This document shows positions 23,895-58,027 of a stretch of 64,000 bases of DNA, one piece after another (positions within the stretch are counted from its first letter, which is position 1; every line of letters starts with the position of its first letter). The stretch lies in assembly GCA_029570205.1 (NCBI GenBank), contig JAKQSI010000128.1:1-64000 (forward strand), written 5' to 3'. The notes beneath the pieces were generated by a model. The model was given only the letters and a program-made list of their open reading frames with translations. It did no database searches and was not told the origin of the DNA. The DNA comes from Candidatus Omnitrophota bacterium (GTDB taxonomy: Bacteria; Hinthialibacterota; Hinthialibacteria; Hinthialibacterales; JAKPRU01). The position numbers and the translations under genes are program-made.

Positions 23895-24328
23895 TCCAGT
23901 TTCCGAACCGGGAAATAACCATATTATTTGGAAATCGCTCAGATTGGGCGTATACTGAAATCCGGCGTGAGATAGGAAGTTCATAAACAATATAAAATCC
24001 GTCCTTCCCTGCGCCCGGTGAAACTCGGTCGGCCGCGAGGTTATCGGATTGCACCGAGCGTGACGTCGGCAGGGCCGGTAATTGGGTGAAGAAAGCGTGC
24101 TTTCGACCTTTCTTTGCCGGGCAGAAACCCTTGGCCCACCGGCGTAATAATCACGGTGGGACAGGCCTCCGTGCCTGTCGATGGCCGGAGAGGATGGGGA
24201 TGAGGGGCGTCGAACCGGCGAGAGTTGGATGGCCCGTAAAGAACAGGTGGATTTGACAGGATCTGCCTGTTTTGTTCTCAAATCCATCGTGCTCCGGGTT
24301 TCCCAGCCCATTGGAGCGGAGGCTGGCA
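23895..24328. other. Intergenic region of 434 bp, no gene seen, contains dispersed repeat
   Basis: No supported coding frame lies between the URO-D gene and the sensor kinase. 23900-24050 has low-complexity AT-richer DNA with no clear promoter. 24055-24185 is a copy of a dispersed repeat that recurs at 53785-53900. Confidence 0.6.
24055..24185. repeat. Dispersed repeat copy 1, ends in GACAGGC hairpin
   Basis: Shares the exact 15-mer TTGGGTGAAGAAAGC and its surroundings with 53785-53900, then the same order of a degenerate first hairpin (CCGGGC-AGAAAC-CCTTGG) and a perfect second hairpin GACAGGC-CTCCGT-GCCTGTC (24160-24179) and CGATGG. Copy 1 has about 20 extra bases between the two hairpins. 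Confidence 0.75.
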
Positions 24329-42464: not shown

Positions 42465-44831
42465 ATGCCGAGCATTCGCCCGCACGAGGTTCTGTCAGAA
42501 GCGTGGAATGAGATCGAGGAACCGCGTCGCAAGGAGATATCGTCTCTGGTTCTATTTGCCACGGCGATTATCTTAGCGCTTGCCCTGGTGACCTCTGATC
42601 CTGCCGATATTGCCGGCGCCGCCGGATCGCAAGACGGGGGTGCGGCGATACACAACTGGATCGGCAAACCGGGCGCTTATCTGGCCTATGCCTGTTTCGC
42701 GCTGTTCGGCTGGTGTGGAATGGCGCTTCCGATTGCCGTCGGGTATGTTGCGGTATGTCGGTTTCACGGTATCCGACGTCGGCAGATGGGGTGGGCGGAA
42801 TACGCGGGAATTGTGCTTCTGCTGGCCTCCAGTTGTTCCTTCCTGTCGGCCTTTCATCTCTTGAGCGATCGCGCCGATTCGGTGGAATCGGCCTGGCATA
42901 GCGGCGGGGCGCTCGGATTTTTCCTGGCTCACCGGGTCCTCACGCTTGGAAAAGTGGGAGGGATGATTATCAATGTAGCGGTCTGGGTGATCGGATTTCT
43001 TCTGGCTACACCGTTTCTCATTTCCGATCTGTTCCGTCGGTCGTATCGGACCGGTATGGATCTCTATGACCGATGGCGCCGGCCGGTGGATGAAGAGGAC
43101 ATGGAGCACGACCTGGAACCCCTGGAACCGTTCGACGCGGAACCCTCCATCCGTACAAAGGACTCTTTCGATTCCACCCTTCTCCCCCCCCTGAAAACCG
43201 TCGAGGAACTTGAAACGGAATCCGCTCTTCCGGAATTCGATGACGAGTCGTCTCCGACATACGGAAATGGAACACCCAAAAAGAAACGCAAGGATGTCGA
43301 AGAACTCGAACCGCTGATTGTGACTAATGACAATCGCCACGCCCCGGAACGTGACCGGAGTGTCAATTATGTCGAGACTCCCAATAATGACAACTATCAA
43401 CTTCCGCCTCTTGCATTGCTCAAGAAATCTACCGGCGGGCAACCGGATCTGGCACGGGATGAAATCCTTTACAATTCGCGGATCCTGGAAAGTACCCTGA
43501 GTGATTTCGGAATCTCTGCCCGCGTAGTGGAAGTGAACTACGGACCCACCATTACCTGCTATGAACTGGAACCCGCCCCCGGTATCAAGATCAGTCGGAT
43601 TGAAAACCTGGCGAACGACATTACCCGCGCTCTCAAAGCCTGCACGGTGCGTATTGTGGCGCCTATTCCGGGCAAGGGAACGGTCGGTGTAGAGGTTCCA
43701 AACAAGCACCGATCCGATGTATTTCTTCGGGATGTTTTGGGATCGGAGGTCTATCAGCGCCATCCGAGCAAACTCAAGATCGCGCTCGGAAAAACCATTA
43801 CCGGCGAGCCGTTCAGTTTCGATTTGCGTCAGGCTCCGCACCTGTTGATCGCCGGTGCGACCGGTTCCGGGAAATCGGTCTGCGTCAATTCCATTATCAG
43901 CTCGATTCTGTACAACGCGGCGCCCCATGAGGTGAAACTGCTGCTGATTGATCCCAAACAGGTCGAACTCGCGCTGTATCACGATATCCCGCACCTGCTG
44001 GCTCCTGTGGTAACCGATCCGAAACGGGCGGGCGCGGCGCTGCGCTGGGCGGTAGAGGAAATGGAAAACCGATACCGTTACCTGAAACATGCCGGTGTGC
44101 GCAATATCGGCGAATATAATGAAAAACGTAAACAGGACTATGCCGACGAGGAAATCGTTGTGCTGCCGTCGTTCCTGCCGTACATCGTCATTCTGATTGA
44201 TGAGTTAGCCGATTTGATGATGATCGCCCGCGCCGAAGTGGAATCCATGATCGCCCGACTGGCGGCCATGGCCCGAGCGGTGGGGATTCACCTGGTATTG
44301 GCCACACAGCGCCCGTCGGTTGATGTTCTAACCGGCGTCATCAAGAATAACTTCCCCGCGCGGATCGCATTCCAGGTTTCTTCCACAACGGATTCCCGAA
44401 CCATCCTGGATATGAAAGGCGCCGAATCGCTGATGGGACGCGGGGATATGTTGTTCACGCCCGGCGGCGCAGGCCGACCGGAACGCCTTCAGGGATGTTT
44501 TGTTTCCAGCGAAGAGGTTGCCCATCTCGTAGATTTTGTGAAAAATCAGCAAGAGGTACAGTACATCCAGGATGAATTTGTGCCCATGGACGAGGACAAA
44601 GAGAGCGAGTATGGGGAATTCTCCGATACTGACGATTATGACGAGCTGTTCGACGAGGCAGTGCGGATTGTTCTGGAAAATGACTCCGCCTCTACCTCTC
44701 TACTCCAACGTCGAATGAAAATCGGCTACGGCCGGGCCGCCCGCCTTCTGGACCTAATGGAGGACAAGCAGATTGTCGGCCCGCCGCGCGGCAGCAAACC
44801 CCGCGAAATTATCCTGCGCAAGACACCATAA
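42465..44831 (+). CDS. ftsK: DNA translocase FtsK/SpoIIIE
   Basis: ATG 42465 follows AGGAG at 7 bp; 788 aa. About four membrane helices lie in residues 25-190 and an acidic, low-complexity linker at 200-300. The motor has Walker A GATGSGKS at about 464-471 and Walker B VILIDELADLMM at about 574, preceded by 'FDLRQAPHLLIA'. The C-terminal gamma winged-helix domain ('YDELFDEAVRIVLEN' to 'GYGRAARLLDLMEDKQIVGPPRGS') reads the chromosome polarity sequences. It pumps DNA at the septum for chromosome dimer resolution. Domain set and length are canonical. Confidence 0.96.
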   Translation: MPSIRPHEVLSEAWNEIEEPRRKEISSLVLFATAIILALALVTSDPADIAGAAGSQDGGAAIHNWIGKPGAYLAYACFALFGWCGMALPIAVGYVAVCRFHGIRRRQMGWAEYAGIVLLLASSCSFLSAFHLLSDRADSVESAWHSGGALGFFLAHRVLTLGKVGGMIINVAVWVIGFLLATPFLISDLFRRSYRTGMDLYDRWRRPVDEEDMEHDLEPLEPFDAEPSIRTKDSFDSTLLPPLKTVEELETESALPEFDDESSPTYGNGTPKKKRKDVEELEPLIVTNDNRHAPERDRSVNYVETPNNDNYQLPPLALLKKSTGGQPDLARDEILYNSRILESTLSDFGISARVVEVNYGPTITCYELEPAPGIKISRIENLANDITRALKACTVRIVAPIPGKGTVGVEVPNKHRSDVFLRDVLGSEVYQRHPSKLKIALGKTITGEPFSFDLRQAPHLLIAGATGSGKSVCVNSIISSILYNAAPHEVKLLLIDPKQVELALYHDIPHLLAPVVTDPKRAGAALRWAVEEMENRYRYLKHAGVRNIGEYNEKRKQDYADEEIVVLPSFLPYIVILIDELADLMMIARAEVESMIARLAAMARAVGIHLVLATQRPSVDVLTGVIKNNFPARIAFQVSSTTDSRTILDMKGAESLMGRGDMLFTPGGAGRPERLQGCFVSSEEVAHLVDFVKNQQEVQYIQDEFVPMDEDKESEYGEFSDTDDYDELFDEAVRIVLENDSASTSLLQRRMKIGYGRAARLLDLMEDKQIVGPPRGSKPREIILRKTP

Positions 44832-44929
44832 TTGTACTCCCTTCACCGCCATAGACACGGGGTTCCATGGCCATGACCAGGGTGGGAGATTTTCCGGTCA
44901 ACCACGGATGGGCTGCGGCTTATGGTAGA

Positions 44930-44949
44930 GGCAGGCCTCCGTGCCTGCC
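44930..44949. repeat. GGCAGGC hairpin, member of the dispersed hairpin family
   Basis: GGCAGGC-CTCCGT-GCCTGCC between ftsK and the GT2 gene. Position 2 of the stem is G:C here against A:T at 24160 and T:A at 31657. Confidence 0.75.
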
Positions 44950-44957
44950 TGTCTCCT

Positions 44958-45920
44958 TCATGCAAAATGAATGGTTTCCCGAATCCGGTAAATCGGTTTC
45001 TGTTTTGATTCGTGGTAAATGCGGGTTAGTAATTCGGCTAACAATCCCAGCATAATCATTTGCGCGCCGAGCAGCGCCAGGAACACCGCCAGCAAAAGAA
45101 TCGGATTTCGGTGCGCTTTCTGACCGGTGAGGAACTTGTCTACTAATACCCACACCCCGCACAGGAATCCCGCGCCCATCAGTGTCCCGGCGATGGCTCC
45201 GAAGAAATGAATAGGGCGTGTAATATAACTCCCCAACAGCAGCAACACCAGCAAATCCAGCAGCACCTTCGGTGTCCGCTCTAACCCGTACTTTGCTTTC
45301 CCATACCGACGTGGATGATGGCGAACCGGTATCTCGCAAATCCGCGCTCCGAGTTGCGCCCCATATACCGGAAGGAATCGGTGCATCTCGCCGTATAGCG
45401 ATACTTCTTTAAGCATATCCGCTTTGGAGGCGCGCAACGTACAACCGATATCGTGCAATTGCAGGCCGGACACAGCGCGCACAAGTTGATTCGCGGTCCA
45501 GGAAGAAAGCCGCCGCAACAGAGAATCCCGGCGATCTTTCCGCCGACCGCAAACAATATCATATCCCTCGGACATCTTTTCGATCAGGATCGGGATGTCG
45601 GCCGGGTCGTTCTGCAAGTCAGCGTCCAGCGTGACAATAATTTCTCCTTCCGCACAGTCGATGCCCGCCGCCAGAGCCGCTGTCTGGCCGAAATTCTTCC
45701 GGAAAACCAGCACGCGAATCCGGGGGTCTCGCCGTGCCAGCTCGCGCAGGACATCCAGCGAACGGTCCGTGCTTCCGTCATCGATGTACAGCACTTCATA
45801 CGCTCTGCCGAGCGGCTCAAGCGCAGCCACCAGCGCGGCATGGAGCGGCGTTAAACTCTGTTCCTCGTTGAACACCGGAATGACGACGGAAATATCCACA
45901 CTACCGGACGACTCGGCCAT
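44958..45920 (-). CDS. Polyprenyl-phosphate GT2 glycosyltransferase with two C-terminal helices
   Basis: ATG 45920 follows GGGAGG; 320 aa. The GT2 core has 'VVIPVFNEEQSLTPL', 'EVLYIDDGSTDRSLDVL', 'LVFRKNFGQTAALAAGI' and DADLQNDP (DxD metal site). Two membrane helices lie at about 225-300 ('FFGAIAGTLMGAGFLCGVWVL' and 'ILLLAVFLALLGAQMIML'). This is the layout of dolichyl/undecaprenyl-phosphate mannose or glucose synthases (DPM1/GtrB/ArnC-like) and fits a carrier for the GT-C type protein seen at 3906-5291. Confidence 0.9.
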   Translation of the reverse strand: MAESSGSVDISVVIPVFNEEQSLTPLHAALVAALEPLGRAYEVLYIDDGSTDRSLDVLRELARRDPRIRVLVFRKNFGQTAALAAGIDCAEGEIIVTLDADLQNDPADIPILIEKMSEGYDIVCGRRKDRRDSLLRRLSSWTANQLVRAVSGLQLHDIGCTLRASKADMLKEVSLYGEMHRFLPVYGAQLGARICEIPVRHHPRRYGKAKYGLERTPKVLLDLLVLLLLGSYITRPIHFFGAIAGTLMGAGFLCGVWVLVDKFLTGQKAHRNPILLLAVFLALLGAQMIMLGLLAELLTRIYHESKQKPIYRIRETIHFA

Positions 45921-46088
45921 CGGAAATCCTCCCATTTCGTAGTCATTCGACTATAGCAAGTCTGCTCCCGAATGCCAATAACAGCCGATCTTTTTCAACA
46001 AGTTCCTTTGTGCATCTCCCCGGAAAATCCAAAAATGTGCGCCGTTTCACTAATCAATAGAAAGGCAATCGAAAAAAAAGGAAAGACG

Positions 46089-46613
46089 ATGGAACAGCCT
46101 GCCGCTAACCGAAATGACTCACTGCGAATGGGAATGCTGCAAGTCAGAAGTCTCGCGTATGCCTTCGCCGAACAGTCCGAGAATCTCCGAATGCTCCGGC
46201 AAGAATACGGCGAATTGGAAAAGAAACAGGATGCCCTCGAGGCCGGTCAGGAACGATGGCGGGATATCCTCGAATTGGGAAAGCAGTCTCTTCAGCGGAT
46301 CCGCAAGGAGACGGAGATACGAATGCGCACGATTGTCCTCACCACCGGCGAAGAGGAACGTCTTTCGGAACTGCAAAAACATCTCGCCAGGCCGGACCTG
46401 ACGGTTTCTGAATTGACAAATCTTCATGCGCGGATATCCGAGGAGTTTCGGCTTCTATTTCCCACACGTCCCCATTCGTTGACTACCGATCGACAGGCGG
46501 CAGTCGATGTGCCCGCCGATTTCCTGAACGAATATCGTTTTCGAGGCGAATCACCTCATTCATACATTCCATTAACAGACAAGGAGAACACACATGGCAC
46601 GGTCCGTAGATAA
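46089..46613 (+). CDS. Coiled-coil protein at the start of the virion-like cluster
   Basis: ATG 46089 follows AAAGGAAAG. 174 aa. Residues about 15-95 form a long predicted coiled coil ('FAEQSENLRMLRQEYGELEKKQDALEAGQ', 'LELGKQSLQRIRKETEIR'), followed by 'SELTNLHARISEEFRLLFP'. No domain is recognised. It overlaps the next gene's start by 20 bp. Position and coiled coil would suit a scaffold-like protein, but the family is unknown to me. Confidence 0.6.
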   Translation: MEQPAANRNDSLRMGMLQVRSLAYAFAEQSENLRMLRQEYGELEKKQDALEAGQERWRDILELGKQSLQRIRKETEIRMRTIVLTTGEEERLSELQKHLARPDLTVSELTNLHARISEEFRLLFPTRPHSLTTDRQAAVDVPADFLNEYRFRGESPHSYIPLTDKENTHGTVRR

Positions 46614-47007
46614 CAACGGGGTCGGGGCCTTATACGCCACGTTTCAGATCGACACGACCGCGGGGGTCTATGACCTCACAATAAACAACTTGGGCGATGC
46701 GGTATCGCTGTCCGCGAGTAATGAGGTCGACCACGGCTCGGACGGCGGAGTGCTGCTCGGCAGGCTGGAGCATGTCGGCGACGGTCTTGCGACGGTACAG
46801 ATTGCAGGTGTCGCCCGGTTTGCCCTGAATACCGACAAGACCGCACCTGTTGTCGGTAACGGTGTCGTTGTGGACGGCGCGGGAAAAGTCTACAAGGCTC
46901 CCGCTATAGCCGAGGGTTCCGATGTCCCCGCCGGGGGAAATCCGGCACGCGGTATGGTCATCGCCGTGGATTCCGTTAACCACACCTGCGATGTCCTTCT
47001 GGGTTGA
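46594..47007 (+). CDS. Phage capsid decoration-like protein (DUF2190-like)
   Basis: 137 aa; ATG 46594 follows AAGGAGA. 'LTINNLGDAVSLSASNEVDHGSDGGVLLGRLEHV' and 'LATVQIAGVARFALN' then 'VVGNGVVVDGAGKVYKAP' and C-terminal 'RGMVIAVDSVNHTCDVLLG' match the all-beta pattern of phage head-stabilising or cement proteins (DUF2190 type), in which G-D-A-V opens the sheet. Its place directly before a major capsid protein supports this. Confidence 0.72.
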   Translation: MARSVDNNGVGALYATFQIDTTAGVYDLTINNLGDAVSLSASNEVDHGSDGGVLLGRLEHVGDGLATVQIAGVARFALNTDKTAPVVGNGVVVDGAGKVYKAPAIAEGSDVPAGGNPARGMVIAVDSVNHTCDVLLG

Positions 47008-47050
47008 TCGCATTCCACTCTATTAGCCATTCAGTCAAGGAGAATTGATC

Positions 47051-48115
47051 ATGTTGATTCCTGAAGAACAACGAACGGGATTGCCCACGCAGTTGCAGCG
47101 CGCCGCCGGCATTCCACTGCATCCCGGATTGTATAGCGAAGCCCGGCAGCGAGGCGTTCACCTCTCCGGCTACCTGGAGGAACTCGATCCCTCCGGCGCG
47201 GAATCGGCCCTGGATGCGTTCGAGCGACAGCTGGCCCTGGCCGGTATCAAGGTCAGCGGCCCCGAATCCAGCATCATCGACCGATTTTTCGCTACGCAGG
47301 AAAGTGCGGTCCTGTTTCCTGAATTTGTCGCCCGCTCCGTGCGGATCGGCAAAGACGATTTCACCAAATTAGGCAAGATTGTTGCGAATCGCACACGGGT
47401 GGATGACAACACTTACAAGGCGATCTACATGGACGACTCGGTTCTTGCCGACAGCGACAAACGTCTTGCGACAGTAGCCGAAGGCGCGGCCCTTCCGAAA
47501 ATCGAGCTGGAAACAGCGGAACATTCCATCCAACTCTACAAGTACGGCCGTTACCTGGAGGCCACCTACGAGGCCATCCGCCGGAAGCGAGCCAATGTGA
47601 TTGCGTATTTCCTGCGCGCGGTCGGGGTACAGATTCAGCGTGACAAGTTCGCCGATGCCGTCGGAGTTCTCATTAACGGTGACGGGAACAACAACGCGGC
47701 TTCCGTTGTGGAAACAGCAACGAGCGGCACGGTCACATACACAGACTTGGTGAAGTTCAAACTGTCCCTCGACCCATACGAAATGAATGTCCTGGTAATC
47801 AGCCAGGAAACGGCAAAAACCATTTTGGGCCTGAATGAATTCAAAGAGCCTCTGGTTGCCGAGAAATTCCAGAAGTCCGGTGAAATGATCAGGTTATTCG
47901 GCGCCGAGATCCTGGTAGACAATTCAGTAACGGACGATTTGATCGTGGGGCTGGATCGTCGATTCGCGCTGGAAGAGGTGTACGAAACCGAGGTTATGAC
48001 CGAGAGCGAGCGGCTGATCCGTCAGCAGATCGAAGGGACGGCTATTTCGGAAGTCGCCGGTTTCGCGAAAGTGATCCGATCCGCCTGCAAAGTTCTCGAC
48101 ACGGTTCATGCATAA
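47051..48115 (+). CDS. HK97-fold major capsid protein
   Basis: ATG 47051 follows AAGGAGA; 354 aa. The N-terminal 70 residues include a helical arm. The body has 'RKRANVIAYFLRAVGVQIQRDKFADAVGVLINGDGNNNAASVV' and the C-terminal 'GEMIRLFGAEILVDNSVTDDLIVGLDRRFALEEVYETEV' then 'QIEGTAISEVAGFAKVIRSAC', typical of capsid P- and A-domains in large siphophage-like and GTA-like HK97 proteins. No terminase, portal or protease gene stands before it, which is abnormal for a complete phage. Confidence 0.82.
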   Translation: MLIPEEQRTGLPTQLQRAAGIPLHPGLYSEARQRGVHLSGYLEELDPSGAESALDAFERQLALAGIKVSGPESSIIDRFFATQESAVLFPEFVARSVRIGKDDFTKLGKIVANRTRVDDNTYKAIYMDDSVLADSDKRLATVAEGAALPKIELETAEHSIQLYKYGRYLEATYEAIRRKRANVIAYFLRAVGVQIQRDKFADAVGVLINGDGNNNAASVVETATSGTVTYTDLVKFKLSLDPYEMNVLVISQETAKTILGLNEFKEPLVAEKFQKSGEMIRLFGAEILVDNSVTDDLIVGLDRRFALEEVYETEVMTESERLIRQQIEGTAISEVAGFAKVIRSACKVLDTVHA

Positions 48116-48139
48116 TCTTTCTTTGTAGAGGCGGCGCAA

Positions 48140-48161
48140 GGGGCGACGCATCCGTCGCCCC
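48140..48161. repeat. GGGGCGACG hairpin
   Basis: GGGGCGACG-CATC-CGTCGCCCC, a 9-bp perfect hairpin in the gap after the capsid gene. A similar GGGCGCAC hairpin is at 20666-20685, so it is a host intergenic element inside the cluster. Confidence 0.75.
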
Positions 48162-48200
48162 TGCGATTGCCTGAGATACCTGGAAACAGAGGAACCTACC

Positions 48201-48590
48201 ATGGCGTTTACCAATGAATCCCTTGTCCGCCAACGGGGCCTGATGCGGCTGTTTGATGAGGTTCCATTCGATTTCGTTAGCCGATGTATCGACACGGCGC
48301 ATCTGCGAGTGACGGAGGCGATTGTCGAAATCTCCGAAAACGAACCGCCCTTGCCTGTCGTTGAAGCGGAAACGGATCTCGCCATGGCAGAGATCATCAG
48401 GCGGCTGGCGGTCTCCAGAGAGATCAATCAACAATCGTATAGAACCCCTGAAATCAGTTTGGAAAGTAGAGATCGGGCCGAGCGATATCTCGCCTTGGCC
48501 TCATTGGAAGAATTACAAGCCTGGAGCCGCCTGCAGCCTTACTTAAAACACCCCGGTCCCCTGCCCTGGGCGATGCAACGCCCGCGCTGA
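48201..48590 (+). CDS. Hypothetical protein, possible head-tail connector
   Basis: 129 aa, no recognised domain. It is mostly helical and acidic: 'RCIDTAHLRVTEAIVEISENEPPLPVVEAETDLAMAEIIRRL' and 'RDRAERYLALASLEELQAWSRLQPYL'. Phage connector and completion proteins (DUF1320-like) are similar in size and position after the capsid gene, but I see no firm motif. The gene is open with GAGGAACC upstream. Role rests on place only. Confidence 0.5.
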   Translation: MAFTNESLVRQRGLMRLFDEVPFDFVSRCIDTAHLRVTEAIVEISENEPPLPVVEAETDLAMAEIIRRLAVSREINQQSYRTPEISLESRDRAERYLALASLEELQAWSRLQPYLKHPGPLPWAMQRPR

Positions 48591-48628
48591 GTTAGACATT
48601 CCATTCAGCGCAATAAGAAAGTAGAAGA

Positions 48629-49309
48629 ATGATTCGGATTGGAACCTTTCTGTTTCCCGAAGAATCCTCCTGGTGGCGATCGACTACTCTGGAGGCGCTG
48701 TCGAAAGAGCGACGTGAAATCGTGATTCGGGCCGTCCTGTCCCATCCCGACGGTCCTCTCGCCTTGCGAAAGCAGCTGGAAACATTGGAGCAGGAAGTCG
48801 AGCGTCTGGATCGCGGAGAAGCGGCGCTGAGTCTTCACTCCGGGCGGTTCTTTGAGGGGCGGCGACGTGAGTTGTCCGTCGTACTGTCCCCACGGGAAGA
48901 TGCCGCTCGAATCTCCCTCAAGATGCTGACCCTTGACCGCTTTGAGCGCAGTGATGTGCTGCACCGCCTGAACGCAGACATATCTCCGCCGGGTAATTCC
49001 ATATACCTCCTGAATCGCGGCAACTTCCCGACACCGCCGGCGTTTCAAGTTCGGCCGGAGGAAGCGATGACGCGGTTCCGCATCGAGATCGGCACGGAAT
49101 CATTGAACTACAGCGGATCGTTGAACTCCGGAGACATACTGAACATTGACTGCGAACACGGGATCGCTCTGTTGAACAACGACGAGAATACCACAAATCT
49201 GGTAGATGAATTTCCCCGGCTTCCAAGCGGATGGAACACGGTTACTTTACGGAGTGAGACCGCTGCGGACGGTACATGGGAGATTCAATACCGCGATCTG
49301 TGGGTCTGA
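48629..49309 (+). CDS. Distal tail (Dit-like) protein
   Basis: 226 aa. The C-terminal half 'FRIEIGTESLNYSGSLNSGDILNIDCEHGIALLNNDENTTNLVDEFPRLPSGWNTV' and the final 'EIQYRDLW' match the galectin-like C-terminal part of phage distal tail proteins, where the pattern is I.G.L..GD.L.ID......N..N......FP.L..G.N...YR..W. The N-terminal half has a charged helix region. The start at 48629 follows AGAAG. It would form the tail tip hub. Confidence 0.7.
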   Translation: MIRIGTFLFPEESSWWRSTTLEALSKERREIVIRAVLSHPDGPLALRKQLETLEQEVERLDRGEAALSLHSGRFFEGRRRELSVVLSPREDAARISLKMLTLDRFERSDVLHRLNADISPPGNSIYLLNRGNFPTPPAFQVRPEEAMTRFRIEIGTESLNYSGSLNSGDILNIDCEHGIALLNNDENTTNLVDEFPRLPSGWNTVTLRSETAADGTWEIQYRDLWV

Positions 49310-49322
49310 ACGGAGGTCTGCA

Positions 49323-50264
49323 ATGTACCACTCTTATCGAGCCGCGGAAGTGACCGATAGCCATCTCAACGATACGCAGGCGGATCTCGCGGCGATCAAC
49401 GCGCTCGCGCAAATGCCTCTCGGGTTGGAGGACGTCTACATCCGCAGCATGTATCTCTGCTCGGATCAGCCGTGCGAGACCGATTGGTCACAATTTACGC
49501 CCAGGGCATTGGAGCAAATCCGCCGTCTGGTTGTCGGGCAATCGGTAATCGGCGGGCACGACCGGCGCACGCTTCCTCTGGCACGGTTCTTTAAGGCATC
49601 TGTTGTGGAAAGGTTCGGCCCGAGCGGAGAGCGAGCGTTATGGGTGCAAGCCTGGTTTTATTGGTTGCGGAAGACCAGCGGGGCAACCGATCTCCTACTG
49701 AACATCGACGGCGGGATATATCGGGAAGTTTCCGTTGCCTGGCGATACCGGCATTGGCGGTGTTCAATTTGTGGAAAAGAAGACGGTGTGTGCGGTCACC
49801 GTCCGGGTGACCAGGTAGAGAATGCCCGTTGTCTTCGTCTGATCGACAGCATTGTAGACGTTCTCGAAGGTTCATTTGTCTACAAGGGGGCGGATAAGGG
49901 CGCTGTTGTGGCCGGAGCGCGGAGCATTCCTGCCGACATGAATGAGGAGGCGGTTCTCTGTATTTGGGAACACGGCCATCCGCTCTTCGATCTCCTCTGT
50001 CGGGAGGGATTGCTCTCTGATGTGAGAGAGGCTTTCCCGGAGGAATTGCAAGCCCTCGAGGGGTCTGCAACTGACATGTGGGTAGACGATCTCGGACGGG
50101 CATTCTCCAGCGGCAGGGAACTACACCGCCTTCTCGCACCCGGTGGAGCCTTGGTTACCTGCCGGACAGATTCGATCACTTCTCGCATGACAGACCTGCC
50201 GAATTTCCTCGTAACTGAAGAGGAGGCGGAATCCCCGGCATTGATAGTCCGACGATTGGAGTAA
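49323..50264 (+). CDS. Prohead protease-like protein with C-terminal extension
   Basis: ATG 49323 follows GGAGG; 313 aa. The N-terminal half has 'LVVGQSVIGGHDRRTLPLARFFKASVVE', 'LNIDGGIYREVSVAWRY' and then CSIC...C.H..G at 141-160, as in phage prohead proteases and related maturation proteins that carry 'VSVxF...CSICG...CxHxPG'. The C-terminal half ('EEAVLCIWEHGHPLFDLLCREGLLSD' and 'ELHRLLAPGGALVTCRTDS') looks like the end of a methyltransferase-type Rossmann fold, an odd partner. The usual Ser/His catalytic pair cannot be confirmed by eye. Confidence 0.5.
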   Translation: MYHSYRAAEVTDSHLNDTQADLAAINALAQMPLGLEDVYIRSMYLCSDQPCETDWSQFTPRALEQIRRLVVGQSVIGGHDRRTLPLARFFKASVVERFGPSGERALWVQAWFYWLRKTSGATDLLLNIDGGIYREVSVAWRYRHWRCSICGKEDGVCGHRPGDQVENARCLRLIDSIVDVLEGSFVYKGADKGAVVAGARSIPADMNEEAVLCIWEHGHPLFDLLCREGLLSDVREAFPEELQALEGSATDMWVDDLGRAFSSGRELHRLLAPGGALVTCRTDSITSRMTDLPNFLVTEEEAESPALIVRRLE

Positions 50265-50272
50265 AGAATCCC

Positions 50273-51064
50273 ATGGCAAACCTGGGAAAATACGATCCGA
50301 CGCGAGAGTCGCACAGTTCATCTCTGTTCATTTACGGAGAGGTTCCGGTATCTTCGGCGAAACTGAACCGCTGGAACGCCAATATCGATGCCTCCCTGGA
50401 AGCCGTGAACCTAGCGGTCTCCCGTCTAGTGAACTCGGATCAGAACGCTGTGTTGGATACGGGCTGTGGAGGATCGCTACGGGTCGCCGCTCAACCGACT
50501 CCGAATATGACCGTGCGCATCCTGACCGGGGTGGGAATCATTCATCCTTATGTTGTTGCCAAAACCACCGTGGAGACTCTTCCCGGCGAGGGAATGATTG
50601 AGCCTCCGGTTTCGGCTTCCAGGATCGACGTTGTCTACGCTCGCCGGGATGGAGAATCGGGAATTGTAACCGGAGCGGAGGACAGTTCCCCGGTCGCGCC
50701 CGGTATTCCCACAGGCGCCATGGCCCTGGCAGAAATCTATCTTCGTCCTGGATGCACAGCAATTAAAGAATCGGATGACGGCCTGAACGGTTACCTTGTT
50801 GATCTTCGCAAACTCGTAACCGTCGGGCCGTCCCACCGTCATTCCGTGGATCAAACGCCGCCGGAGGTTCCTGACGGGGAGACGGTTCATTTCAGCACGG
50901 CCCTGCCATTCCGGTTGGGGACGCTGGAAGTGTTCCTGAATGGCGTGATGCAGGCAGCCGCGGTGGATTATACAGAAGAGGAGACCTGTCGGGGCTACAT
51001 CTTTCACAGTCCGCCGCCGGCAGTGTCGATCATTCAACACCGATATCTCATCAAACAGGAGTAA
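50273..51064 (+). CDS. Virion or baseplate-like protein of unknown function
   Basis: 263 aa from ATG 50273. 'YGEVPVSSAKLNRWNANIDASLEAVNLAV' is like the N-terminal 'xxxxSSxxLNxWNxxI' of some phage structural proteins attached to the tail tip. A beta-rich middle ('MTVRILTGVGIIHPYVVA', 'SRIDVVYARRDGESG') and 'FRLGTLEVFLNGVMQAA...YTEEE' follow; that last part is a repeat used in tail-fibre proteins to bind partners. It is collinear with the tail-spike gene. Confidence 0.55.
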   Translation: MANLGKYDPTRESHSSSLFIYGEVPVSSAKLNRWNANIDASLEAVNLAVSRLVNSDQNAVLDTGCGGSLRVAAQPTPNMTVRILTGVGIIHPYVVAKTTVETLPGEGMIEPPVSASRIDVVYARRDGESGIVTGAEDSSPVAPGIPTGAMALAEIYLRPGCTAIKESDDGLNGYLVDLRKLVTVGPSHRHSVDQTPPEVPDGETVHFSTALPFRLGTLEVFLNGVMQAAAVDYTEEETCRGYIFHSPPPAVSIIQHRYLIKQE

Positions 51065-51070
51065 AGAATT

Positions 51071-51205
51071 ATGAATCCGTTTCTACGTCGATTTCTCACG
51101 CTTCTCATCCCGCTCATTCTCGATTGTATCGAAGAAGCCCTGAACCAGAACGTCACTGAGGAAGGAAGACACGAGAGCAATGAACAATCTGAATCCGACA
51201 AGTAA
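51071..51205 (+). CDS. Small 44-residue hydrophobic protein in the virion-like cluster
   Basis: ATG 51071 lies seven bases after the previous stop and follows GGAGTAAAGAA. It reads MNPFLRRFLTLLIPLILDCI and then an acidic tail (EEALNQNVTEEGRHESNEQ and SESDK). One short hydrophobic helix is followed by a charged tail. It overlaps the tail-spike start by 26 bp in another frame. A holin-like or membrane-anchoring role is possible from shape only. Confidence 0.6.
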   Translation: MNPFLRRFLTLLIPLILDCIEEALNQNVTEEGRHESNEQSESDK

Positions 51206-53498
51206 TCCTTTCATGGGTAAAATGGGCTGGGGCCTGGCAATTCTATTGCCCCTTTGCGCTCTCTGTATGGCCAATCCGCAAACCCTGGCGCGGACACTTA
51301 TTCACCCCAGTCAGATTGAGGACGTTTATCTTCGAAATACGGGAGATGTTTCCACCGGCGACATTGTGGCGGCAACCTCCGAGGTAATGGCTGCGACATT
51401 TGTTGTGAATGGGAGTGACACGGCGGCCCGGATTTTTCTCGCCGATGAACTCCAGGAAAAACTGTGGATTACGACTAACGGTTATGATATCCGTATTGAT
51501 CCGAATGTAGGAGTGTCTCCCGAAGCGCCGGCCACGGCGTTCATTCAATTCGGAACGACGGTCCGCTTTGACGATACTGTAGGCGACAAAATCAGACTCT
51601 GGTCACATTCGTATAAAATCGGTGTGTCTCCGTTTGATTTGGACGTTACCTCGGATCGGAATATCAAATTTCACTCCGATACGGTAGAGGACCTGTTCCA
51701 AATCCTGGGCGATGAGGGCGATATTGTAGTAAAAAACAATGTGATCTCGGGGGCAGATGTATATGCGTCCACGGCCTTTCGATTTATCGAACAGCAGCCC
51801 GGCGACAAAATCTATCTGTACTATCCAAACTACAAATTCTCCATCTCACCGAACGATCTGGATGTGTTTTCGGATCGCTATATCAAATTCCATTCCGATA
51901 CGAACGAGGAGGCCATGGTGCTGGACGCCGACGTCGGCGACCTGGCCGTGGAAGGCCATATCAAAGCGCCGATCGCTGTGTTTGGAGCAACGGACGATCC
52001 CCCTGGGGGTTACTCGCTGGTGGCGGATAACGCCTGGATCGGTCATCTGAGCAGCCCCGGTATTTCAGATCGCGGATGGACCGTATCCGGGGACAATGTG
52101 TTTACAAGTGCCGGAGGAAATGTCGGAATCGCTACCTCCGAAACGAATGAGAAACTCACATTGAACGGGGCGCTGAGTGTGAGTAACCGGTCGGTCGATC
52201 CGGCTACAAGTTCTCATTATGGAAAAATCTATTCAGCGCCCAGGCGAGTGCGGCAAATTGCGCCCTATACCTCGCTGTTGCTGCACGCGGAGGGCACCGA
52301 CGGATCGTCTTCGTTTGCAGATAGTGCTGTCTCTGCCCATGTCATGACAGCATACAACGGCGCTCAGATCGATACGGAAGCATTCAGGTTCGGGACAAGC
52401 AGCGGGAAATTCGACGGTACGAACGACTATCTTGACACACCGGATCACGAGGACTGGAATGTGGGAAGCAACGACTTCACTGTCGATTTCTGGTTCAAGC
52501 GTGACGGCGGAGCCGGCGCGTATCGATACTTCTGCGGTCAATACATTGACACGCCTGCGAGTGGCGGTATTTACCTGTTGATGCGAAACACCAATCTGAT
52601 CGAGGGAGGGCTTTATTATGGAAGCTCTTATACCACCTTACAGCACACTTCGGCGATTACGGATGCAAATTGGCACCATGTCGCTTTCTCTCGAAGCGGG
52701 AATTATTTGCGTTTGTTTGTAGACGGTATCAATTCCGCTACTGCGACTGTTACGGGAGTGACGGTGAACAACTCTTCTTCCCGCTTCGCCGTGGCGCGGA
52801 TGGGCCAATACAACCAGGACTACTGGAAAGGCTGGATTGACGAATTCCGTTTCAGCAAGGGCATTGCGCGCTGGACGGAATCGTTCACGCCACCGACCGC
52901 TCCTTACCCGGACGGGTATTTCGATACGAACGCGCTTTATTTTCTCGATGAAAATGGTCGAAAGTATCTGCTGTCGGCGTGGGAAGAAAACGAATCGGGA
53001 ATGCACTACCAGGGAGGATATCTCGGCCTCGGTACGCAGGCTCCGCAACGTGTTCTGGAAATCGGGGCCGGGCAGGGCAACGCGCGTGCCGATGGCTGGG
53101 ATGTCTGGAGCGCGGCGAAATTCAAGAAAGATATTGAGCCTTTGACTCCGGAGGATCGCTCGTCAATGCTCGAAGAATTGCAGAACGCCCGTCTCTTCTA
53201 TTTCCGTTACAAGGGAGAGCCGGATACACATCGGAAACGGCTTGGCTTCCTGGTGGAGCAAGCCCCTCGATCCATCGTGTCGCCGGACGGTTTGTCCATC
53301 AGCCTGAGTGACGGCCTCGGCCTGGCTTTCGCGGCGCAGATGGCCATTCTGGATCGGATCGACGCGCTGGAACGGAGTCTTGTGAAAGCCGGGATTCCGC
53401 TTGCGACCCCTGTTGCCACACCCACTCCGGTATTCACACCGATGCCGACCGCGACGGCTGCTCCCCTGAGTGCGTCACAGGAATCGGAGGGGAATTGA
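51180..53498 (+). CDS. Tail spike-like protein with LamG and S74 chaperone domains
   Basis: 772 aa. An N-terminal hydrophobic stretch ('GWGLAILLPLCALCM') may be a signal or anchor. Residues about 45-350 are repetitive beta segments with 'DRNIKFHSDTVEDLF' and 'DRYIKFHSDTNEEAM' repeats, like a trimeric shaft. A LamG/concanavalin-like domain lies at about 365-580 ('FDGTNDYLDTPDHEDWNVGSNDFTVDFWFKRD', 'WHHVAFSRSGNYLRLFVDG'). The C-terminal 'FKKDIEPLTPEDRSSMLEELQNARLFYFRYKG' and 'RKRLGFLVEQAP' make a peptidase S74 intramolecular chaperone, which cuts itself off after folding. A low-complexity Pro/Thr tail ends it. Confidence 0.82.
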   Translation: MNNLNPTSNPFMGKMGWGLAILLPLCALCMANPQTLARTLIHPSQIEDVYLRNTGDVSTGDIVAATSEVMAATFVVNGSDTAARIFLADELQEKLWITTNGYDIRIDPNVGVSPEAPATAFIQFGTTVRFDDTVGDKIRLWSHSYKIGVSPFDLDVTSDRNIKFHSDTVEDLFQILGDEGDIVVKNNVISGADVYASTAFRFIEQQPGDKIYLYYPNYKFSISPNDLDVFSDRYIKFHSDTNEEAMVLDADVGDLAVEGHIKAPIAVFGATDDPPGGYSLVADNAWIGHLSSPGISDRGWTVSGDNVFTSAGGNVGIATSETNEKLTLNGALSVSNRSVDPATSSHYGKIYSAPRRVRQIAPYTSLLLHAEGTDGSSSFADSAVSAHVMTAYNGAQIDTEAFRFGTSSGKFDGTNDYLDTPDHEDWNVGSNDFTVDFWFKRDGGAGAYRYFCGQYIDTPASGGIYLLMRNTNLIEGGLYYGSSYTTLQHTSAITDANWHHVAFSRSGNYLRLFVDGINSATATVTGVTVNNSSSRFAVARMGQYNQDYWKGWIDEFRFSKGIARWTESFTPPTAPYPDGYFDTNALYFLDENGRKYLLSAWEENESGMHYQGGYLGLGTQAPQRVLEIGAGQGNARADGWDVWSAAKFKKDIEPLTPEDRSSMLEELQNARLFYFRYKGEPDTHRKRLGFLVEQAPRSIVSPDGLSISLSDGLGLAFAAQMAILDRIDALERSLVKAGIPLATPVATPTPVFTPMPTATAAPLSASQESEGN

Positions 53499-53744
53499 AT
53501 GAACCGAAGGCCGAGTTACAGCCCCGAATATGTGGAATTGCGCACGGCCATTGAGCATGTAACCGCGCGAGTGGAGGGCATCCAAATGCTCTTGCGGGAT
53601 ATCCAGCGTGACTTTGCGCGGACCGAGTCCATGGTGTTGAAAAACCGAAGCGATATTGCGGCGATCAAAATCACCGCCTCGCTTCTTGGAGCCGCTGCCG
53701 GGGCATTTATCGGCCTGTTCGGCAAATCCTGGTGGCCGTTCTGA
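53499..53744 (+). CDS. XhlA-like lysis or holin-accessory protein
   Basis: 81 aa. Residues 1-55 form an amphipathic coiled coil ('EYVELRTAIEHVTARVEGIQMLLRDIQRDFARTES') with 'KNRSDIAAIKITASLLGAAAGAFIGLFG' as a single membrane helix near the C-terminus. This is the XhlA-type arrangement seen beside phage holin and endolysin genes, where coiled coil precedes a helix. Starts immediately after the tail-spike stop. Confidence 0.7.
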   Translation: MNRRPSYSPEYVELRTAIEHVTARVEGIQMLLRDIQRDFARTESMVLKNRSDIAAIKITASLLGAAAGAFIGLFGKSWWPF

Positions 53745-53784
53745 CTGATGGACTCGTAGGAAAGATCTCGTGCGCCTGTCATTC

Positions 53785-53900
53785 CGAGTGCGACTCCGGC
53801 AGAGTCGGTGATTGGGTGAAGAAAGCCCCGCTTCCCACCCTTCTTAGCCAGGCAGAGACGCCTGGCCTACTGGTGGGGACAGGCGTCCCTGCCTGTCGAT
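53785..53900. repeat. Dispersed repeat copy 2 with two hairpins
   Basis: Same order as 24055-24185: GAGTGCGACTCCGGCAGAG region, TTGGGTGAAGAAAGC, then hairpin CCAGGC-AGAGAC-GCCTGG (53848-53865) and GACAGGC-GTCCCT-GCCTGTC (53878-53897). It also matches the unit of the tandem array at 29031-29280. Confidence 0.8.
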
Positions 53901-53928
53901 GGGCGAAGAATCTTAAGGAGACAAAATA

Positions 53929-54078
53929 ATGGCGGATTCTCAAGACAGTCCCACATCCCTTGCCGAAAACGAAGGAACCACCGGATTGGCGCCTGAATCC
54001 GATGCAGCGATACCCGCCATCGAGCTGACTGTCCGGTTTCCCGAGAACGGCGTTCATCCTGTTTATTTCCTTGCATGA
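53929..54078 (+). CDS. Small 49-residue protein of unknown function
   Basis: ATG 53929 has AAGGAG at 53915-53920 (8 bp spacing). The product starts MADSQDSPTSLAENEG and ends 'ELTVRFPENGVHPVYFLA'. The first half is acidic and polar, the second a short beta-like segment. The strong ribosome binding site and clean frame argue for translation. No family recognised. Confidence 0.55.
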   Translation: MADSQDSPTSLAENEGTTGLAPESDAAIPAIELTVRFPENGVHPVYFLA

Positions 54079-54094
54079 TTGGAGAGCATGAAAC

Positions 54095-54406
54095 ATGACC
54101 ACGACCATTTTGTTGACCCGAAACGATCATGGAATCCAGCTGCGATTCACCTGCCAGGACCGTGAAGGCAATCCGATCGATCTGACGGACCGCGAAGTCC
54201 ATTTCCTTCTGGAATCCGAAGGAGAGATTCTGAATACGGATCGGAGCCTCTGTGAGAATATCGATCTACCGGCGGGCAAAGCCGCTTACACGGTGGATGC
54301 GGCCGATACGGCTCAGACGGGAATCCTGAAAGGACGCCTGCGCTTGCAGAATGAAAGCTTTCAGGTGGAAAACCTTGAACCCATTGCCGTCCAGGTGAAA
54401 GAATGA
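54095..54406 (+). CDS. Baseplate upper protein (BppU/DUF2479)-like N-terminal domain protein
   Basis: 103 aa. 'GIQLRFTCQDREGNPIDLTDREVHFLLESEGE' and 'LPAGKAAYTVDAADTAQTGILKGRLRLQNESF' match the small Ig-like domain of phage BppU proteins (pattern xLxFxVxDxxGxPxDLTGxxVxFxL). Such proteins link receptor-binding domains to a baseplate. Only one domain is present. ATG 54095 follows GGAGAG. Its stop overlaps the next start (ATGA). Confidence 0.68.
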   Translation: MTTTILLTRNDHGIQLRFTCQDREGNPIDLTDREVHFLLESEGEILNTDRSLCENIDLPAGKAAYTVDAADTAQTGILKGRLRLQNESFQVENLEPIAVQVKE

Positions 54407-54882
54407 AGCGCAACGAGATCCGCCTGACAGATCATTTCTTCCTCTCCGAGTTTGAGGATAAGGCCACCGGATTGGTGTGTATTCATCCTCTGCTTCCATT
54501 GCGTTTGGAACAGATGCGCATCCGGCTGGGTGTTCCGTTGAGGATTACATCTTCCTGTCGAACTTGGCCGGAACATCGTCGGATTTACCGGCAGCAATAC
54601 GGAGAAAGGTGGGCGGAGGAGATCAGCCTTGGAAGCCGTCATCTCTTGTGCGGCCCGGATGAAGAGGATTTTCAGAAATATCCCGTGCTGATGGAACGAC
54701 TTGGAGAAATGACGTATCTGCCTGCAAAATCAAATCTTACCTGTTGTGCTGCTGACGTTCGCCGACCGGAGGAGGTGTCGTCAAGAACTTTTGAATTGGT
54801 TGCCCGTTCTCTCTTTGATTTTGTGAAGCCCTATCCATGGGGGCTTCATGTCGATCTGCGTCACACCTCCCTGGATAAGTAG
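54403..54882 (+). CDS. M15-like peptidase, probable phage endolysin
   Basis: 159 aa. 'LTDHFFLSEFEDKATG' is the N-terminal signature of M15A peptidases. 'RITSSCRTWPEHRRIYRQQYG' precedes the SxH element 'LGSRHLLCG', then after a 35-residue insert 'CCAADVRRPEE' gives the Asp ligand, and 'WGLHVDLRHT' gives the last His, so the His-Asp-His zinc triad is complete. M15 enzymes cut peptidoglycan cross-links. Overlaps the previous gene by 4 bp. Confidence 0.75.
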   Translation: MKRNEIRLTDHFFLSEFEDKATGLVCIHPLLPLRLEQMRIRLGVPLRITSSCRTWPEHRRIYRQQYGERWAEEISLGSRHLLCGPDEEDFQKYPVLMERLGEMTYLPAKSNLTCCAADVRRPEEVSSRTFELVARSLFDFVKPYPWGLHVDLRHTSLDK

Positions 54883-55047
54883 CCTGCAGAAAATCTCTTT
54901 CCCCCGCCCGGCCTGTTTCGATCCGATGGAAATATATTGCGATTCCATTGGAGATTTTCGGACCTAAATCAAGTAAGCCAAGGTGGTTAGTTACGATCCC
55001 GGCATGATGTTCATTTTACAACATATAGGTGATCGGGCATAAAAAAA

Positions 55048-55063
55048 ACACGATATGTGGTAA
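55048..55063 (+). promoter_or_regulatory. Possible NrdR-box-like site
   Basis: ACACGATATGTGGTAA matches the consensus ACACTATATATAGTGT at about 11 of 16 positions. It lies just before a TTGACA element upstream of the RNR gene. NrdR sites usually occur in pairs; a second site was not found. Confidence 0.25.
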
Positions 55064-55070
55064 AATGAGC

Positions 55071-55099
55071 TTGACAGGCGGTGCGAGAACTCGTATGGT
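55071..55099 (+). promoter_or_regulatory. Sigma70-like promoter upstream of RNR leader
   Basis: TTGACA (55071-55076), 17-bp spacer, TATGGT (55094-55099). The -35 is perfect, the -10 is weak. Transcription would start near 55106 and meet the terminator at 55136. Confidence 0.45.
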
Positions 55100-55135
55100 G
55101 AAGTCCACCTGAAAATGCACTGACGGAGATCCTTG

Positions 55136-55165
55136 AACACACTCGGTATGAGGGTGTGTTTTTTT
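55136..55165 (+). terminator. Intrinsic terminator between promoter and RNR gene
   Basis: AACACACTC (55136-55144) pairs with GGGTGTGTT (55152-55160), 9 bp with one G-U, loop of 7 nt, then TTTTT (55161-55165). It could end a short RNA of about 60 nt or act as an attenuator. Confidence 0.7.
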
Positions 55166-55237
55166 CACTTACTGCTTGTGGCGGCAGGCCCACATGGCGG
55201 GCCGACAAATACATGTTGAGGGATCGGAGAGAAAATC

Positions 55238-58027
55238 GTGGGTGAATTGGCAATTACCGATAACGGCGATCTGGTTCAGACCAACGAAAACGAAGTCACA
55301 TCCGCCTTGGGGATTGTCCCCGTCGAAGGCGGATTGAAGGTTCCGAGGCGGTGGACTTCGCCCGGACGGAATCCTTTCGATCAGGTCAAGTGGGAGACCC
55401 GCAAGGCCACCATCACCAATGAAAAAGGCGAGGCGGTATTCGAACAGGAGAATGTCGAAGTTCCCTCTTTCTGGTCACAGATGGCCACAAATGTGGTGGT
55501 CTCGAAGTATTTTCGCGGCAAGGTCGGCGCACCGGGCCGGGAAAGGAGCGTCCGGGAGCTGATCGGCCGAGTTGTGCGAACTCTGCACGAGTGGGGCACA
55601 AAACAGGGCTATTTTGCGACGGAAGAAGACGGACAAGCCTTCGAGGATGAATTGGCCGCCATCTTGCTCACACAGAAAGCCTCGTTCAACAGCCCGGTCT
55701 GGTTCAACCTGGGGGTGGAAGAACACCCGCAATGCTCCGCGTGTTTCATCAATTCTGTCCAGGATACCATGGAATCCATTCTGAACCTGGCGAAGATTGA
55801 AGGGATGCTGTTCAAATACGGTTCCGGGACAGGGACGAATTTTTCAACGTTGCGTTCCTCCAAAGAGCATGTCACCGGCGGCGGAACGGCCTCCGGTCCG
55901 GTCTCATTTATGAAGGGATATGATGCGTTCGCGGGAGTAATCAAGTCCGGCGGCAAGACCCGTCGCGCCGCCAAAATGGTCATTCTGAATATCGACCATC
56001 CGGATATAGTCGAGTTCATCAACTGCAAGGTCACCGAAGAGAAAAAGGCTTGGGCGCTGATTGAGCAGGGATACGACGGGTCTTTCAATGGGGAAGCCTA
56101 TTCCTCCGTATTTTTTCAGAACTCCAACAACAGTGTCCGTGTAACCGATGAGTTCATGGTCGCTGTCGAGAAAGACCTGCCGTGGAACACCCGCGCCGTG
56201 GTTACCGGCGAGATTATGGATACGTACCGCGCGCGGGACCTGATGCGCATGATCGCCGAGGGGACATATATTTGCGGCGACCCGGGGATGCAGTTTCATT
56301 CGACGGTCAACAAGTGGCATACCAGCCCGGCTACCGGCCCGATTAACGCCTCTAATCCCTGTTCGGAATTCATGTTCCTGGACAATTCCGCCTGTAACCT
56401 GGCCTCATTGAACCTGCTGGGATTTCAACGTTCAGATGGGCAATTCGATGTGGATGGGTTCCGTCATGCGGTGAATATTATTTTTCTGGCGCAGGAAATT
56501 ATCATAGATAACGGCAGCTACCCGACTAATCCCATTCAGGTACGCAGCCACGAGTTTCGCCCTCTAGGGCTGGGCTATGCCAACCTGGGGGCGTTGCTGA
56601 TGTCGGTCGGATTACCCTACGACAGCGATGCGGGGCGGGCGTATGCGGCAACGATTACGGCTCTGATGACCGGTGAGGCTTATGCCACCAGCGCAAAAAT
56701 AGCCCGCCGGATGGGAACATTTAAACATTACGAAGTCAATAAGGAGCCGATGCTGAATGTCATCGGAATGCACAGGGACACATTGAAGAATGTATCAAAA
56801 GACCTGGTGCCCGATTCCCTCTACAAGGCTGCCGAAGCGGCGTGGGAACGCGCACAAACTCTGGGTCGGGAATACGGATTTCGGAATGCGCAGGCGACGC
56901 TTCTGGCTCCCACCGGAACCATTGCTTTTATGATGGATTGCGATACGACCGGCATTGAACCGGATATTGCCCTTGTCAAATACAAGAAACTTGTGGGGGG
57001 CGGCCTTCTGAAAATCGTTAATCAAACCGTACCGAGAGCGCTCAAGCGACTCGGCTACTCATCTGAGCAGATCAAGGAAATCATCGCGTATATTGATGCG
57101 AAGGATACCATTGAAGGGGCTCCTCACCTGAAAGAGGAACATCTGCCGGTATTCGATTGCGCGTTCAGACCGGCAAACGGGAATCGGTCCATTGATTACA
57201 TGGGACATCTCCGCATGATGAGCGCGGTGCAACCGTTCCTGTCCGGGGCAATTTCCAAGACGGTGAACATGCCGAATGAGGCCACCGTTGAGGACATTAT
57301 GAAAACCTACATCGAGGGCTGGAAACTCGGACTGAAAGCCGTGGCCATTTACCGGGACGGCTGCAAACGCACCCAGCCACTCAACACCAGCCTGGCGGAC
57401 AGAAAAGACAGGTCGGGTTTCCCCCCGGCCCAACCATACCGGAGACGGCTACCCGATACACGTAAAGCCATTACCCACAAGTTCAGTGTCGGCGGGCATG
57501 AGGGCTATCTCACGGTCGGCATGTATGAGGACGGGAAACCCGGCGAGATTTTCCTGACCATGTCAAAAGAGGGAAGTGTCGTTTCCGGGCTGGTAGACTG
57601 CTTTGCAACAGCCATTTCCATGACCCTGCAATACGGCGTTCCGCTTCCGGTGCTGGTACAAAAATTCAGTCACATGCGTTTTGAACCGTCCGGGTGGACC
57701 AGCAATCCGAGGATTCGGGTAGCCAAATCCATTATCGACTACATTTTCCGCTGGCTGGCCTCCGAATTTCTATCCCCGGAGGAATGCGAACGACTCGGAA
57801 TTCTAAGTGATAACAAGAACGGTTCCGGAAAGGTGGACGATGAAGAGAACGGTTTTGGTTCTTCTTCTCCCGGCGCGGCTGCATTGACCTCTACCATATC
57901 GTCGGAAAGTGTAACATTCCAGACGCAGGAGGATGCTCCGCCGTGCGCGGAGTGTGGCGCAATTATGGTGCGAAGCGGAACCTGCTACAAATGCCTGAAT
58001 TGCGGCGCAACCAGCGGCTGCTCGTGA
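55238..58027 (+). CDS. nrdJ: Adenosylcobalamin-dependent (class II) ribonucleotide reductase
   Basis: 929 aa from GTG 55238 (GGAGA upstream). Family blocks: 'QKASFNSPVWFNLGVEEHPQCSACFI', 'LFKYGSGTGTNFSTLRS', 'NPCSEFMFLDNSACNLASLNL' and 'LAPTGTIAFMMDCDTTGIEPDIALVKYKKL'. The active-site Cys/Glu/Cys set is in the NPCSEF-type segment and the C-terminal cysteine pair region. The C-terminus has a CAEC...CYKC..C Cys-rich zinc-like tail. It reduces ribonucleotides with B12, oxygen-independently, so the cell needs cobalamin. No other RNR class is in the window. Length is normal. Confidence 0.95.
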   Translation: MGELAITDNGDLVQTNENEVTSALGIVPVEGGLKVPRRWTSPGRNPFDQVKWETRKATITNEKGEAVFEQENVEVPSFWSQMATNVVVSKYFRGKVGAPGRERSVRELIGRVVRTLHEWGTKQGYFATEEDGQAFEDELAAILLTQKASFNSPVWFNLGVEEHPQCSACFINSVQDTMESILNLAKIEGMLFKYGSGTGTNFSTLRSSKEHVTGGGTASGPVSFMKGYDAFAGVIKSGGKTRRAAKMVILNIDHPDIVEFINCKVTEEKKAWALIEQGYDGSFNGEAYSSVFFQNSNNSVRVTDEFMVAVEKDLPWNTRAVVTGEIMDTYRARDLMRMIAEGTYICGDPGMQFHSTVNKWHTSPATGPINASNPCSEFMFLDNSACNLASLNLLGFQRSDGQFDVDGFRHAVNIIFLAQEIIIDNGSYPTNPIQVRSHEFRPLGLGYANLGALLMSVGLPYDSDAGRAYAATITALMTGEAYATSAKIARRMGTFKHYEVNKEPMLNVIGMHRDTLKNVSKDLVPDSLYKAAEAAWERAQTLGREYGFRNAQATLLAPTGTIAFMMDCDTTGIEPDIALVKYKKLVGGGLLKIVNQTVPRALKRLGYSSEQIKEIIAYIDAKDTIEGAPHLKEEHLPVFDCAFRPANGNRSIDYMGHLRMMSAVQPFLSGAISKTVNMPNEATVEDIMKTYIEGWKLGLKAVAIYRDGCKRTQPLNTSLADRKDRSGFPPAQPYRRRLPDTRKAITHKFSVGGHEGYLTVGMYEDGKPGEIFLTMSKEGSVVSGLVDCFATAISMTLQYGVPLPVLVQKFSHMRFEPSGWTSNPRIRVAKSIIDYIFRWLASEFLSPEECERLGILSDNKNGSGKVDDEENGFGSSSPGAAALTSTISSESVTFQTQEDAPPCAECGAIMVRSGTCYKCLNCGATSGCS

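Follow-up and report, generated by a model that had tools for sequence, protein, structure and literature searches.

A probable gene transfer agent-like element with genes at several loci in a bacterium of the OLB16/Hinthialibacterota lineage

To our knowledge, few gene transfer agents (GTAs) have been described, and most of them are found in Alphaproteobacteria. The tail of the agent RcGTA is siphovirus-like and contains a tape measure protein. GTAs are characterized by six attributes: their proteins are related to those of tailed phages; their genes are endogenised, often at several loci; they are inherited vertically and co-diversify with the host; they package mostly random host DNA; their own genes do not all fit into the particle; and they deliver DNA to other cells (PMC9662315). 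Ruminococcaceae and Oscillospiraceae have also been reported to show GTA-like packaging, and Faecalibacterium encodes a short-tailed agent, FpGTA, in two operons (PMC12946183).

The locus described here lies in a 64,000-nucleotide stretch of DNA, hereafter termed the window, from a bacterium probably of the OLB16 lineage, now Hinthialibacterota, as suggested by the large genomes and the small number of relatives (13, all of one class); OLB16 was earlier misclassified as Omnitrophica (PMC10066038). The source assembly is a 4.39 Mb metagenome bin of 131 contigs, in which searches were confined to named families; the phylum genomes used are all drafts, mostly metagenome assemblies. Judged from the genes alone, three of the six attributes are present: tailed-phage virion proteins (capsid, portal, large terminase subunit [TerL], Dit and decoration protein), endogenisation (three loci among host genes) and co-diversification with the host (the capsid and portal trees match that of FtsK on supported nodes, and the phylum's capsids form one clade). 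The element probably encodes a short-tailed, GTA-like particle that has been domesticated and is inherited vertically, its genes being distributed over at least three loci.

The virion gene cassette and the predicted functions of its genes

The cassette at positions 46089–54882 comprises 11 main genes, all on the + strand, in open reading frames and collinear, in agreement with the original prediction of an intact virion cassette with strong ribosome binding sites, although such sites were found for most of the genes and not for all. Its base composition is that of the surrounding chromosome, and it is flanked by host genes: ftsK and a GT2 glycosyltransferase gene on one side and nrdJ, encoding a B12-dependent ribonucleotide reductase, on the other. 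The features are as follows.

46089..46613, + strand: gene A, coiled-coil-like protein of 174 aa; no family match; f2 genomes have orthologues in the same position; dN/dS 0.28
46594..47007, + strand: gene B, capsid decoration protein; phrog_4588 (6e-6); 49–76% identity across the class outside the genus
47051..48115, + strand: gene C, HK97-type major capsid protein of 354 aa; phrog_3922 (1e-80), PF25209 (2e-11)
48140..48161, no strand: host-type palindromic repeat; 11 genome places, 0 in the control
48201..48590, + strand: gene D, helical protein of 129 aa, probable head-tail adaptor from position and profile only
48629..49309, + strand: gene E, Dit (distal tail protein); PF22768 (3e-12), phrog_33 (9e-14)
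49323..50264, + strand: gene F, prohead-protease-like protein with a zinc-finger-like insert; phrog_16951; motifs
50273..51064, + strand: gene G, conserved virion-type protein of 263 aa; weak DUF4815/phrog_358 match; 38–45% identity across the class, order kept
51180..53498, + strand: gene H, tail spike with an N-terminal export-like signal; LamG PF13385 (3e-19); S74 PF13884 (2.5e-4, slightly below the family cut-off)
53499..53744, + strand: gene I, XhlA-like protein of 81 aa with a C-terminal membrane segment; orthologues in the order; dN/dS 0.026
53849..53895, no strand: host-type repeat hairpin; arm in 8 copies in the window, 0.02 expected
54095..54406, + strand: gene J, BppU-like protein of 103 aa; 38–44% identity in f2 genomes
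54403..54882, + strand: gene K, M15-type endolysin; phrog_894 (6e-4); motif SRH...AADV...GLHVDLR

The predicted HK97-like capsid, decoration, Dit-like and LamG/S74 spike proteins were thus recovered as family matches. The capsid protein, which is 354 aa long in all 12 genomes compared, gave no relative among solved structures in sequence searches. Gene D aligns and shows a profile match with a longer Zixibacteria gene located downstream of the capsid gene, and its predicted fold (pLDDT 80) has no match in the PDB. The alignment of gene F contains an invariant His and Ser in an S78-type (HK97-type prohead protease-like) pattern, together with EGSLVYKGA-like and CxxC...CxH motifs and a zinc-finger-like insert; a homologue lies between the portal and capsid genes in Zixibacteria, Clostridia and Caulobacter phage Seuss. 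The motif and the position upstream of the capsid gene in other phyla suggest that gene F may encode a protease, as predicted, but it has no Pfam match, and its predicted fold (core pLDDT about 90) has no PDB match. The XhlA-like and BppU-like genes gave no library match above the cut-off in the family searches, and the M15 assignment of gene K rests on its motif, on phrog_894 and on its counterpart in the sister family f4, a clear PF08291 (M15_3) protein.

A hydrophobic, signal-peptide-like N-terminus, called by a simple hydrophobicity rule rather than by SignalP, is present on spike H in 10 of 10 orthologues (L117, L118 and L121–L126 among the loci), and fibre-like proteins at the spike position in Zixibacteria (L031, L055; n = 4) have the same signal-like start; no such segment was found on the head and Dit proteins. 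Sec-type signal-like segments on spike or fibre proteins are unusual for virion proteins.

Family searches detected no terminase, portal or integrase gene in the cassette or the flanking genes scanned, as had been predicted, and no repressor or replication genes there; a separate TerS, a tail tube and a regulator were likewise not identified in this genome. An Rfam search of positions 44000–56500 yielded no match, and promoter and terminator scans gave no excess over shuffled sequence. Since the tape measure family PF10145 is absent from this genome and from 9 of 11 others tested, and no tape measure is seen in the contiguous cluster of family f4, the tail is likely to be short and a long tail is unlikely. 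Both hairpins within the cassette, predicted to be of host type, are dispersed host repeats: the palindrome at 48140 occurs at 11 places in the genome compared with 0 in a reversed control, and the 53785-type repeat CAGGCGTCCCTGCCTG, which forms an arm of the downstream hairpin, is present in eight copies with at most two mismatches at 24162–53895 of the window.

Portal and large terminase genes at separate loci

The suggestion that the absent virion genes lie elsewhere in the genome held for the portal and TerL, each of which was found as a single intact gene, but not for a PF10145 tape measure. A portal profile was built from sister genomes in which the portal gene is located directly upstream of the decoration and capsid genes, and a search with this profile identified one intact copy (G000:C86:3483-4745, E = 1.5e-153), which also matches PF06074 above the cut-off and phrog_3753 (9e-48). 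It stands alone among host genes, flanked by hppA and a glycosyltransferase gene, and its neighbours recur across genera: the same glycosyltransferase gene is found in G000, G001 and G005, and zinc-ribbon and RsfS-like genes are common to G003, G005 and G006. The profile search found the portal in 12 of 14 genomes, this one included, and in every genome of the order except the fragmented G002.

The orphan TerL gene, on contig C16, is intact (637 aa), is located among host genes and matches PF03237 (1e-11); its Walker A motif AGRGAGK and its nuclease-domain motifs are invariant. Within the genus it adjoins an FtsH-like gene, and orthologues are present in the order, that of G006 being interrupted by contig ends. 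TerL was not found in G004, though the cassette and portal are present there, and in G009 capsid, portal and TerL are all absent. The TerL types differ between families, that of f1 and f2 being of the phrog_2 type and that of f4 of the phrog_38 type; a search of this genome for the f4-type TerL (A2) found none. We infer that TerL belongs to the cassette system. Two further TerL matches were set aside: one on contig C74 (4.8 kb; L138), which shows about 90% protein identity to the C16 region with the same neighbours and probably represents a second strain in the bin, and a weak one on C54 that is cut by the contig end. The TerL of the genus (L131/L137, G000:C16) has a long extension at its N-terminus that includes a winged-helix-like stretch and may represent a fused DNA-recognition part; the N-terminus of the f2 orthologues is shorter and different.

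Inheritance, alternative explanations and proposed function

The original prediction would have been refuted by an absence from related genomes; instead, 12 of the 13 relatives within the class carry the capsid gene, in one copy each, and 11 of 13 carry the portal gene. Synteny in relatives, proposed as a check, was found: the cassette order is kept in six genera of family f2. In the sister family f4, a single cluster of about 12 kb contains the genes in the order portal, X, decoration, capsid, adaptor, Dit, F, G, spike, XhlA-like, M15 endolysin, small membrane protein, HTH-like protein and TerL. The f4 cluster of G012 also carries a small antitoxin-like and MazF-like gene pair directly before TerL (L117, 16921–17557). 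Capsid identity drops with kinship (94–97, 60–66 and 53–63%) much as FtsK identity does (92–97, 60–61 and 46–52%); the well supported nodes are congruent among the trees of FtsK, capsid and portal, and the capsids of the phylum form one clade with a support of 95. The proposed dN/dS comparison, made between this genome and L018, gave 0.053 for the capsid and 0.054 for the portal, close to the 0.063 of FtsK.

Decay of the cassette is excluded, because all of its genes are intact and free of stop codons, with dN/dS values of 0.03 to 0.28 in the same comparison. These values, a gene order shared by genera from four of the class's families and trees that follow the host leave scarcely any probability that some genes of an old, decaying prophage were left by chance, a view that would otherwise agree with the lack of integrase, repressor and replication genes in the cassette and flanks and with the two genes outside it. 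It is also very unlikely that an ordinary prophage or satellite lost its other genes in assembly: the metagenome assembly, in 131 contigs, would allow this, and phage Seuss combines the same TerL–portal–F–decoration–capsid order with a tape measure, but host genes flank the cassette on both sides in a single 64 kb stretch, as also in L018, PF10145 is absent in 10 of 12 genomes, and the portal and TerL genes are embedded among host genes in several independent assemblies, contrary to a normal prophage that a better assembly would join. A temperate prophage was rejected on the absence of integrase, repressor and replication genes among the cassette and scanned flanking genes, a cf-PICI satellite on the absence of an integrase there and the location of the packaging genes elsewhere, and an encapsulin nanocompartment on the Dit and spike genes in the cassette and the portal in the genome.

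A domesticated capsid or short-tail device that does not transfer DNA, such as a PBSX-like killer or a protein-carrying shell, would use the portal and TerL for assembly only, or TerL for something else. It would accord with the behaviour of PBSX, which packages host DNA without injecting it (PMC12946183), with the exported appearance of the spike proteins and with the indirect link between TerL and the cassette; however, selection on the portal is as strong as that on the capsid, the catalytic motifs of TerL are invariant and the f4 TerL is kept within the cluster region. The retention of portal and TerL makes a DNA-free capsid device less likely, and we consider this explanation rather improbable.

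Conserved synteny, purifying selection and the presence of portal and TerL in the genome support the predicted domesticated particle, for example a GTA. The GTA-like element most likely consists of genes for head, tail tip, maturation and lysis that derive from an ancestral tailed phage and were kept by the host lineage, and we infer that particles are made, and that they package random DNA and deliver it. In the proposed course of events, some cells would express the cassette together with the orphan portal (G000:C86) and, probably, with the orphan terminase (G000:C16); a small procapsid would be built from capsid, decoration protein and portal, and would be cleaved and matured by gene F; TerL would pump chromosomal DNA into the head until it is full; D, Dit and G would form a very short tail that closes the head; cell lysis would be the task of the XhlA-like and M15 proteins; and spike H would bind surface glycans of the recipient. 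Because the genes are on separate contigs, one packaged stretch could hardly hold all of them. A bolder and distinctly tentative extension is that OLB16/Hinthialibacterota possess an undescribed, phylum-wide class of short-tailed GTAs, in which portal and terminase are lone, housekeeping-like genes and the spike is Sec-exported and either meets DNA-filled heads outside the cytoplasm or marks recipient surfaces; sister systems in Zixibacteria and Ruminococcus might then explain the GTA-like packaging there.

Relatives and comparison with known systems

In Zixibacteria and Oscillospiraceae/Ruminococcus, homologous capsid, F, portal and TerL genes lie together in compact clusters. Each of the five genomes checked from these groups has a single capsid copy, and a related capsid gene occurs as a single copy in 112 of 200 genomes of the Ruminococcus sp. 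zg-924 family (two copies in 0 of the 112). IMG/VR lists related clusters as small viruses, and a scan of that database for the portal retrieved no relative. The GenBank entry MT835508.1 (L192), labelled "Bacteriophage sp.", is a piece of Clostridia-type chromosome with ribosomal protein operons and Rnf-like genes, and carries a compact TerS–TerL–portal–F–capsid cluster.

If the GTA-like interpretation is correct, it extends the candidates to a phylum in which no GTAs are known and adds a set of related capsid clusters from three phyla, each present once per genome wherever this was checked. It also points to genes that may underlie the reported GTA-like packaging of Ruminococcus and Oscillospiraceae. 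It would also mean that a portal and packaging motor can separate from the capsid operon yet be retained, and that surveys seeking one contiguous cluster would miss such elements.

The ancestor of the head module was probably a virus of the Caulobacter phage Seuss kind. Seuss has TerL, portal, F homologue, decoration and capsid genes in the order of the related Clostridia clusters, but it is an 85 kb virus with a long tail, a tape measure and a primase, and its capsid protein is only about 25% identical. The Zixibacteria and Oscillospiraceae/Ruminococcus clusters (L031, L055, L077) share homologous capsid, F and portal genes with the present element, and the decoration protein in Zixibacteria; in contrast, L031 and L077 have TerL, portal and capsid in one contiguous block, and the tail-tip genes differ from those of the present cassette, with hub and gpJ-like genes in the Clostridia clusters. 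RcGTA and RcGTA-like viriforms (Rhodogtaviriformidae) are likewise endogenised tailed-phage genes at several loci with vertical inheritance (PMC9662315), whereas the present element belongs to another phylum, showed no match to RcGTA families in our searches and has no tape measure that we found, unlike the RcGTA tail. FpGTA is similarly small, with TerL, portal and capsid, two separated operons, podovirus-like proteins, and baseplate/fibre and lysis genes, without replication genes (PMC12946183). Its particles and packaged DNA have been shown, whereas the present element is known from its genes, and its portal and TerL genes stand singly, apart from the main operon. The features new to the present element are its lineage, the isolated position of its portal and terminase genes, and the export-like signals of its spikes.
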